Source of the DNA: an uncultured Fluviicola sp.
GTDB lineage: Bacteria > Bacteroidota > Bacteroidia > Flavobacteriales_D > Crocinitomicaceae
Reading direction: 5' to 3'
Assembly (NCBI RefSeq): GCF_902168135.1
Contig: NZ_CABHOL010000015.1
Span: 186,001-250,000, forward strand
Length of the DNA stretch: 64,000 bases
Part shown: piece by piece, positions 805 to 3,208 of the stretch
How the letters are laid out: every line of letters begins with the position of its first letter
How positions within the stretch are numbered: the first letter of the stretch is position 1
Position numbers and translations under genes: made by a program
Notes under the pieces: model-generated
Seen by the model: the letters and a program-made list of their open reading frames with translations, nothing else
What the model was told of the DNA's origin: nothing
The model's database searches: none

Positions 805-1179
805 TTATTGGATTCTCCAGGGCGGACAAAGCCGGTTTTTTCCGGCAAAAAACAGAATCAGCTGGTTTCCATCGGGATCTTTCAGATAAGCTTCGCGCCA
901 GAGCCAGGATTTGTCATTCGGAAGTTCATCGAAGTGTACTCCTTTTTGGATGAGGTCTTCGACTTTTTTATCCAGGTCTTCGCATTCGAAGTAAACGGAA
1001 ATTCCGTGACCGGTTGGCAATTGTTCTGTCAAATGCACCGAAAAAGTAGACGTTCCGTCCGGGCATTCAAATCGTGCATAATGATCGGATTTTACGATCA
1101 GTTTCAATCCCAGCGTTTGGTAGAATGCAATTGACCTGGGAATGTCCAGAGCAGGAACTGTTATTTGGTTTAAATTCAT
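805..1179 (-). CDS. VOC-fold (glyoxalase/bleomycin-resistance-like) protein
   Basis: 124 residues, the usual size for a single VOC protein made of two beta-alpha-beta-beta-beta modules. Module one begins ITVPALDIPRSIAFYQTLGLKL and module two ends LKDPDGNQLILF, the typical VOC closing strand. Members bind a divalent metal and act as lyases, isomerases, dioxygenases or antibiotic-binding proteins. The substrate cannot be told from sequence. The first strand has no obvious metal-binding His, so it may be non-enzymatic. The ATG shares one base with the TAA stop of the upstream membrane-protein gene (TAATG), which suggests translational coupling. Confidence 0.85.
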   Translation of the reverse strand: MNLNQITVPALDIPRSIAFYQTLGLKLIVKSDHYARFECPDGTSTFSVHLTEQLPTGHGISVYFECEDLDKKVEDLIQKGVHFDELPNDKSWLWREAYLKDPDGNQLILFFAGKNRLCPPWRIQ

Positions 1180-1964
1180 TATCTGTGGTTTAAAATAACC
1201 GAATCCGGTACGTTCAGTTCTTTGAGCTTCCGAAGGAAATCTTTTTCGGATAAGCCGTTATAGACTTCTTTGTCCCCGAAATTATCGGTGCTGTCTTTTG
1301 TTGTGACCAAAATAGCATAAACCGTTTTGGTGGTATCGTTGATCACCGGGTTTATTTTTGCCAGGATAAAATCGTCGTTAAACCCGTAAGCGATAACATC
1401 CGGTCCCAGAACAATCCCATAACACGATTTGCAGCTTTTGGATTGATACCCGATTTGCAAAACTCCCTGATCGTATGTGTCATAATCCCAAACACGGTAA
1501 TAACGGCCTGTTAGCTGGTTGTCGCTGACAGAATCCGGAGCTGAGGTAGCGTAGAATGAAAAAACGGACAAGCAGATAATGACCGGTTTCAGAAATTGGA
1601 AGGTGATGGGTTTTGCTTTTTCGGAGTACCAATAGGAAAATGGTAAAACAGACAAGGCTATGAGGTCGCTGTAATCAACCACGCGGGAGAATTCCGTTTG
1701 AAGTGTCTGGTTCACGTAGAACAAAAATCCGGTCGACAAATCCGATTTCCAGAACACGAAAAACACAGCCGTAAAAACAAAATTCAGCCAAATCCGTTTG
1801 GAGTTGAATAAACTTAGAAACAAAGGAAAAATGAATAAGCCTGCAAAATCACTGAGCTTGCCCGTAACCCAGTTTCCAAACATTTCTTTGAGATAAAAAT
1901 CGTTTAGAAGCAGGAAGAAAAGACCGAGCAGGAAACCCGCAGAAGTAATTTTTGACTGTTTCAT
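1179..1964 (-). CDS. Polytopic membrane protein with C-terminal extracytoplasmic domain
   Basis: 261 residues. About five hydrophobic segments fall in residues 8-145 (for example SAGFLLGLFFLLL and FVFTAVFFVFW), followed by a soluble tail of about 115 residues. The stretch around residues 30-50 (NWVTGKLSDFAGLFIFP) is a strongly conserved-looking loop and helix that I have seen in otherwise unnamed bacterial membrane proteins. The tail carries a close cysteine pair (SKSCKSCYG) that could be a disulfide outside the membrane. Function unknown. The stop codon overlaps the start of the VOC gene, so the two are probably one transcription unit. Confidence 0.8.
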   Translation of the reverse strand: MKQSKITSAGFLLGLFFLLLNDFYLKEMFGNWVTGKLSDFAGLFIFPLFLSLFNSKRIWLNFVFTAVFFVFWKSDLSTGFLFYVNQTLQTEFSRVVDYSDLIALSVLPFSYWYSEKAKPITFQFLKPVIICLSVFSFYATSAPDSVSDNQLTGRYYRVWDYDTYDQGVLQIGYQSKSCKSCYGIVLGPDVIAYGFNDDFILAKINPVINDTTKTVYAILVTTKDSTDNFGDKEVYNGLSEKDFLRKLKELNVPDSVILNHR

Positions 1965-2013: not shown

Positions 2014-2739
2014 TTATTTTCTTCCTGCATAAATACTTGCGGCCAATTCTTCTGCTTCTTTCACGGTGAAGTTTCCGCTGATCTCCGTTTCTCCTCCGGT
2101 TATGGCACCATTAACTACCGGACAGGTAAGAACATGATCGTCTATCACAATAGCAATCGCTTTTCCGACATTGTCTGTCGTCATTGTTTTCCATGCGTGG
2201 CTTCCCTGCTGGTTCATCGCAATGCGTATTACAGGCTGGCCGGTATAGGATTTTGCGGCATTGGCACTCATGATATGTCTTCCGTCGATTTTAGCTTCGT
2301 TTCCGGATGGCATTTTGATGGCGTATAGCGCATACATCTTGTGTCCGTTCTCTTCTTCTTCTACTCCGTAAGACCAACGAAACTGAAGATTAGCCGGAAA
2401 AGCCTTTTTAACTTCCGGATTCGCAAGCATTTCAGCAACCTGATGCATGTTTTCCTCATAAACGTATCCCACCATGAAGTTGCCATTCAGACGCACAAGT
2501 GCATTTAAACCTCTTGGGTTTTCGGTCAGACCCAGGTTTTGCTCAGTAGCTAAACTGTCGTGTTCATGAACCCACTTGCAGGCATTTTCCCAGGAAGGAA
2601 ATATTTCTGAAAAAGAGTAAGTTTCAAAGAATTGCAGGTTTACAGGTTTGACGTTCTTCAGGTAAGGCGGTTTTTGTGGTTCATTTCCGTTTCCACAGGA
2701 AAAAAGAGCCAATAACATCAGGATGGGGAAAATTTTCAT
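2014..2739 (-). CDS. Lipoprotein consisting of a stand-alone SecD P1-head-like domain
   Basis: 241 residues. Residues 1-14 form a lipoprotein signal and Cys15 sits in a lipobox (LFSC), so the protein should be anchored to a membrane in the envelope. The C-terminal half, roughly residues 140-239, closely follows the periplasmic P1 head of SecD/SecDF: IRIAMNQQGSHAWKTMT, NVGKAIAIVIDD, PVVNGAITGGETEISGNF and TVKEAEELAASIYAG match the order of motifs seen in SecD (VGK.LAIVLD, SAP.V...I.GG...ISG.FT.EEA..LA..L.AG). No SecD transmembrane helices are present. The N-terminal part (residues 20-135) is not recognised. In SecDF the P1 head contacts emerging preproteins; a similar role here is only an inference. 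It has its own short intergenic regions on both sides. Confidence 0.85.
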   Translation of the reverse strand: MKIFPILMLLALFSCGNGNEPQKPPYLKNVKPVNLQFFETYSFSEIFPSWENACKWVHEHDSLATEQNLGLTENPRGLNALVRLNGNFMVGYVYEENMHQVAEMLANPEVKKAFPANLQFRWSYGVEEEENGHKMYALYAIKMPSGNEAKIDGRHIMSANAAKSYTGQPVIRIAMNQQGSHAWKTMTTDNVGKAIAIVIDDHVLTCPVVNGAITGGETEISGNFTVKEAEELAASIYAGRK

Positions 2740-2851: not shown

Positions 2852-3208
2852 CTAAAGTGGTTCTCCAAAGGTCAGCAGGTTGTTATCCGGATCGAGAATG
2901 GAAAACTCGCGCTGTCTCCAGGGTTTGTCTTCCAAATGCCCATTTGGATGAATAGCCGTACCGCGATCCAGGAAATCCCTGTAAACCGCATCAATGTCGT
3001 TCGTACGAATGTAGACCTGGCCGTAATTCTCTTTCGGATCAAGTTCCCTGAATAGGAAAAAATGAATTTGAATGCCTTCTTTTTCAACCATCAGGTAATC
3101 CGGAAAATCTGCGCTTCCAAAAACGTGAAAGCCCAAATGATTGACGTAAAAATCTTTCGTTAGCTGTTTGTCCCGCATGGGGAGCTTGGGATGGATGGAT
3201 GTGAGCAT
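2852..3208 (-). CDS. VOC-fold protein, bleomycin-resistance-like
   Basis: 118 residues. It opens with TSIHPKLPMRDKQLTKDFYVNHLGFHVFG and closes with REFSILDPDNNLLTFGEPL, both diagnostic of the VOC fold, and it resembles the small bleomycin-binding type (about 120 residues, acidic, EKEGIQIHFFLF strand). These proteins dimerise and either sequester a ligand or act on small molecules. The substrate is unknown and a real resistance role should not be assumed. It is the second VOC protein within 2 kb, but the two differ too much to be a recent duplication. Confidence 0.85.
   Translation of the reverse strand: MLTSIHPKLPMRDKQLTKDFYVNHLGFHVFGSADFPDYLMVEKEGIQIHFFLFRELDPKENYGQVYIRTNDIDAVYRDFLDRGTAIHPNGHLEDKPWRQREFSILDPDNNLLTFGEPL

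Follow-up and report, generated by a model that had tools for sequence, protein, structure and literature searches.

At one end of the window analysed here, a 64,000-nucleotide stretch of a Fluviicola contig, lies a stand-alone lipoprotein gene flanked by a membrane-like protein gene and a glyoxalase-type gene (Table 1). The open frame of the lipoprotein gene comprises 246 codons, compared to the 241 residues read from its ATG, which leaves scant room for an alternative start. Its downstream neighbour yielded no Pfam match, and is also found close to the lipoprotein gene in genomes G002 and G005. Two different glyoxalase/VOC-type genes (805-1179 and 2852-3208, both on the minus strand) bracket this pair, and proteins resembling one or the other were seen by eye beside the lipoprotein gene in several relatives. 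The lipoprotein gene itself sits, as read from locus L004 and the window, between two genes that we take to be xseA and metG. No Sec, chaperone or BAM genes adjoin it, as judged by eye over the opening 8 kb of the window and the 10 kb before it, with five of the proteins searched against Pfam. The initial annotation had suggested comparing neighbourhoods across Flavobacteriales, and the comparison showed VOC-type and 261-residue genes recurring in some relatives.

Table 1. Features of the lipoprotein gene and its neighbours (positions in the window).
Feature	Position	Strand	Basis or remark
Stand-alone SecDF P1-head lipoprotein gene, 241 aa	2014..2739	-	ORF with ATG start, PF22599, predicted fold, dN/dS 0.15
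Predicted lipoprotein signal peptide MKIFPILMLLALFSC, lipobox Cys15 (codon 2695-2697)	2695..2739	-	Sequence; Cys conserved in Fluviicola rows
Short linker behind the predicted lipidation-site Cys, residues 16-29	2653..2694	-	Low pLDDT for residues 1-20; no acidic run
P1-head subdomain (residues 30-241) with a stretch missing from the Thermus head	2017..2652	-	Alignment of the predicted model
Core matching Pfam PF22599, residues 148-239	2023..2298	-	Pfam; 20 of 25 SecDF-conserved columns kept over residues 91-241
Cys206	2122..2124	-	Ala in 34 of 36 SecDF rows; 10 of 11 Fluviicola rows share the Cys
Next gene downstream, 49 bp gap	1179..1964	-	261-aa membrane-like protein; neighbour, membership not claimed
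Gene upstream, glyoxalase/VOC-type, 118 aa	2852..3208	-	Pfam; neighbour, membership not claimed

Predicted anchor and domain of the window protein

The signal peptide of the window protein ends in the lipobox LFSC, and on this basis the protein is predicted to be lipidated at Cys15. A cysteine at position 15 or 17 is found in all 11 Fluviicola rows (10 by our pattern script, with the LYSC of G009 read by eye), and the script's pattern detected a lipobox in 25 of the 37 free proteins collected, those of Fluviicola included. A simple Kyte-Doolittle scan found no hydrophobic stretch of 19 residues and no hydrophobic segment after the signal. Both the lipobox at Cys15 and the lack of SecD membrane helices, as initially annotated, were confirmed. 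Residues 1-20 of the predicted model have a pLDDT below 50. Surface-exposed lipoproteins of Bacteroidota carry an acidic export signal directly behind this cysteine; no acidic run was evident by eye behind Cys15 (CGNGNEPQK), though such a signal may not hold for Fluviicola.

The Pfam model PF22599 (SecDF_P1_head) matched residues 148-239 with an E-value of 2e-24 and 86.1 bits (cut-off 27), and a sequence search of the PDB matched the P1 domain of Thermus SecDF (E = 3.8e-12). The NCBIfam SecDF model NF009585 matched residues 85-240 (E = 2.3e-42) with 145.1 bits, far under its full-length cut-off of 1037, as expected of a fragment. Residues 30 to 241 of the predicted model superposed on residues 106-250 of SecDF, giving the fold of a P1 head, and the structure comparison displayed a clear gap after the SecDF rows; together with the PF22599 E-value, this gap rules out a chance domain match. 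A significant match to the head models and a P1-head fold had both been anticipated from the sequence, and both held.

Two PF22599 matches were found in the window genome, namely the lipoprotein and a complete SecDF of 1008 aa encoded on another contig. Positions 3-212 of a Fluviicola profile (12 seed rows, the genome's own SecDF head among them) align to residues 266-507 of this SecDF (open-frame numbering), and a profile built from the lipoproteins only likewise matches SecDF heads along most of its extent, e.g., positions 22-238 in G001. Taken together with the superposition of residues 30 to 241, this alignment indicates that the whole head is matched; the initial annotation had thus named the right domain for the last 100 residues, while placing its start too late. 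The lipoprotein and its own SecDF share 69 of 211 aligned residues, the lipoprotein pairs with the head leaving no large segment of its own unaligned, and its chain ends where the P1 head ends by both the profile and the model alignment. Judged by these alignments, the protein is the head and little besides, with the C-terminal 100 residues as its most conserved half.

The head fold and conserved core are thus common to the lipoprotein and to the P1 heads of SecDF and SecD (PF22599; PDB entries 3aqo, 3aqp, 5xan and 5yhf). Unlike SecDF, the lipoprotein lacks the P1 base, the transmembrane helices and the SecF half, and therefore has no proton path; it possesses a lipoprotein signal instead, and a cysteine in place of alanine at position 206. 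By its PF22599 score and predicted fold it belongs to the PF22599 domain family, and these missing parts and the NF009585 score set it apart from the SecDF subunits. Overall, sequence, predicted fold and the alignment to the SecDF of the same genome support the view that this gene encodes a motor-less SecDF P1 head with a lipid anchor, bearing out the initial description of a membrane-anchored copy of the head.

Free P1 heads in related genomes

Among 14 Fluviicola genomes, an intact member of the same clade was found in eight, whereas the copy in G005 is split over two contigs and the sole free head of G004 is the divergent L138. No free copy was found in G003, G007, G010 and G011, where the matches to the lipoprotein profile all lie inside SecDF frames, and so the lipoprotein is dispensable. 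The gene is missing upstream of metG in all five Fluviicola genomes that lack an orthologue. A second, diverged copy adjoins the first in G002, G006 and G012.

Of 150 family genomes, 28 contained at least two PF22599 matches, and once G056 (two SecDF fragments) is removed, a free P1 or head is present in 27, a count that takes in the broken copy of G062, the partial frame of G097, the split copy of G005 and a match in G134 just below the curated cut-off. In a sample of the order, free proteins were found in 12 of 41 genomes of the same family, compared to three of 79 outside it (G379, G390 and G396, judged on open-frame length alone), with G413 set aside (SecDF split at contig ends) and a 21-bit stretch in G357 uncounted. 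Across the phylum they were found in four of 118 genomes, the window genome included. Because these samples are not disjoint and were filtered for completeness in different ways, the family's enrichment should be taken as approximate. These counts show that the lipoprotein has an accessory distribution.

A tblastn search matched 38 plasmid records, and among the 20 listed the six annotated matches are secD or secDF; four unannotated faecal phage records were also matched, at 34-36% across some 40% of the query. No free head on a plasmid or phage was seen among these matches, two plasmid records having been examined in detail. The record CP034120.1 (L058), titled Glaciecola amylolytica, carries a Fluviicola-type locus at the coordinates of G001; Glaciecola is a gammaproteobacterial genus, and the title therefore looks wrong.

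The free P1 and P1-head proteins of relatives (L070, L093-L099 and L129-L146) are stand-alone modules like that of the window, and come in several forms. L093-L095 and L137 are window-like heads of about 240-290 aa and L141-L146 are minimal heads of 146-166 aa. Others differ from the window protein in tree placement, in lying beside secDF or in covering the P1 base at 339-462 aa: L096, L097 and L098 are longer lipoproteins (339-420 aa) that also cover the base by pairwise alignment at low identity, and L099 is a 462-aa P1 flanked by a hydrophobic segment at each side. By eye, L138 (2598-3455) is a free head with short MORN-like repeats at both ends, and L139 (2308-3192) a free head with an extra C-terminal part. 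No description of free P1-head lipoproteins was found in our literature search, with most subscription journals outside its reach; in automated annotation such proteins receive the Pfam name.

To place the window protein against SecDF, as the initial annotation had advised, we used a tree of 69 rows (33 free proteins and 36 SecDF heads, leaving out the short, weak L143-L146). The 11 Fluviicola rows and G061 formed one clade (support 96/99), whereas a single origin of all free heads became doubtful: the free label needs nine changes on this tree, at least four of them across well-supported branches, and a constraint placing all free proteins in one clade was rejected (AU p 9.8e-42). Without the rows of G042, G069, G169, G062 and G097 (64 rows), the minimum falls to four changes and a single clade is no longer rejected (p 0.059). 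The rejection thus rests largely on secDF-adjacent copies with possibly converted heads, and many free rows sit on long branches. Given these trees, several origins of the free proteins are likely.

In seven genomes a free copy precedes secDF on the same strand, intact in G083, G037, G169, G042 and G069 and with damaged frames in G062 and G097; in G083, G169 and G062 one small frame lies between the two genes. In G188 the free copy and secDF are adjacent and convergent. In G042 (L129:1-4336), the free protein and the SecDF of that genome have the same head at the DNA level (100% over codons 310-429, 120 codons), while the portion ahead of it is only 49-68% identical, the pattern expected after recent gene conversion. 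In G169 (L099/L119), too, the head is more similar than the rest, at up to 90%. In G069 (L130) it is 67-78% identical and most of the rest 54-68%, yet identity peaks in the first 30 codons (81%), so that the pattern is not clean. The same block comparison revealed no closer head in G083 and G037. Conversion between a free P1 and the adjacent SecDF head is thus clearly suggested in G042, more weakly in G169 and unclear in G069. Beside secDF in G062, the free P1 is broken into two frames (L131:1706-2854), and in G097 a 144-codon frame covers part of the head only (L132:2821-3252); judging from these frames, both are probably decaying duplicates.

Constraint and possible role

Between the window gene and its G005 orthologue, the one close pair compared, dN/dS is 0.15 over 241 codons, and is higher in the first 159 codons (0.19) than in the last 90 (0.09); the gene is kept under purifying selection. 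Fifty-five further pairwise comparisons gave finite ratios of 0.12-0.36, and weigh little since dS was at least 1.27 or undefined in every pair. At the 25 columns with at least 90% conservation among the 36 SecDF rows (alignment of residues 91-241), the window protein keeps the residue at 20, and the group of six to which it belongs keeps it in five or six members at 21. Per-column variability in the Fluviicola rows follows that of SecDF (Spearman rho 0.64 over 207 columns, and 0.69 from residue 130 on). The lipoproteins also have features of their own: besides Cys206, Ile236 replaces a SecDF leucine in 10 of 11 Fluviicola rows, and residues 109 and 116 differ from SecDF, with alanine at 116 in the window protein. 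Cys54 is absent from some rows carrying Cys206, and so a conserved Cys54-Cys206 disulphide is not indicated.

Purifying selection and SecDF-like constraint speak against a dead copy. A functionless by-product of secDF duplication would fit the birth and decay seen in relatives, where the broken copy of G062 and the partial one of G097 both adjoin secDF, but we regard it as very improbable for the window gene, as the dN/dS value also disfavours degeneration, and each of the other 10 Fluviicola rows, some as distant as 34% identity to the window protein, has an open frame with the cysteine at 15 or 17.

According to published work, the P1 head of SecDF is a substrate-binding site, which binds the chain leaving the translocon and moves with proton flow, and that of SecD is close to PpiD (PMC7793623; PMC11470409). 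Likewise, an AlphaFold prediction places SurA on the P1 head (PMC9987972), and SecD P1 is needed for a shift of Sec proteins into outer-membrane fractions, which the authors read as a contact between Sec and BAM (PMC7695460). The proteins in these studies came from E. coli and Vibrio and the structures from Thermus, none of them Bacteroidota.

We tentatively put forward, as the best of the explanations considered, that the freed, lipid-anchored head has kept this binding surface and passively handles exported chains. The lipoprotein would face the periplasm and, by analogy with SecDF, might keep a chain from sliding back or aggregating, or hand it on; alternatively, it might dock the chaperones that receive exported chains. 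With no membrane helices the head cannot pull, and its action would be uncoupled from the proton motive force. PpiD/YfgM and SurA, compared here by their role in the papers and not by sequence, would act at the same step. Selection and SecDF-like constraint are compatible with a retained binding role, and the conserved columns may reflect the fold alone. The absence of Sec, chaperone and BAM genes nearby and of a free copy from four of the 14 Fluviicola genomes counts against a role in export.

The genes that do lie nearby do not look like export genes, which would suit a head recruited outside export, in which the fold on its lipid anchor binds another envelope ligand or partner. Free heads of many sizes and contexts, also away from secDF, agree with such recruitment (the extra parts of L138 and L139; the 146-166 aa of L141-L146), as does the paralogue group G002b, G006b and G012b, all three of which have lost SecDF-conserved residues (e.g., 153, 183, 186, 222 and 232), indicating that the fold can persist for something else. 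The window protein, however, keeps 20 of the 25 SecDF-conserved residues and the variability of the Fluviicola rows tracks that of SecDF, and we consider recruitment somewhat unlikely.

Being the same module as the SecDF head, the lipoprotein might instead act as a decoy or regulator, two of the roles (with chaperone) proposed in the initial annotation, competing with that head for a substrate, chaperone or BAM contact and so tuning export. The five intact copies upstream of secDF on the same strand would suit joint expression, but the window gene and secDF lie on different contigs, and such competition seems to us improbable here. A broader proposition, which we deem unlikely, is that this Flavobacteriales family repeatedly copies out the SecDF head as a free, usually lipid-anchored module working with SecDF, and that conversion can keep the heads of secDF-adjacent copies matched; if true, SecDF would be a motor supplemented by a pool of detached heads.

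The way in which the SecDF head passes exported chains on to the periplasm is not yet settled. A natural motor-less head, under selection in a cell with an entire SecDF, isolates binding from pulling, and could serve as a ready-made reagent for tests of the head alone. The series from secDF-adjacent duplicates to small lipoproteins further suggests how a part of a machine can be freed.

A small frame preceding secDF

Ten of 240 family genomes, all belonging to a single genus, contain a frame of 162-196 aa (L149-L158; e.g., L150:1501-1989 on the plus strand and L149:1498-1995 on the minus strand), with an N-terminal signal-like segment, a variable middle and a conserved end, I-A-[FY]-I-[LQ]-N-C-G-T-Y-P. 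In all 10, secDF is the next frame on the same strand, after a gap of 165-219 bp. This gap contains a conserved stretch, TTGA...TATATTTGC, which we take to be promoter-like and which weakens the case for cis regulation of secDF by the small frame. In shape and position the frame recalls VemP-like secretion monitors; the Bacteroidota class uDF_NAP-stop is named for a different ending (PMC10987492).
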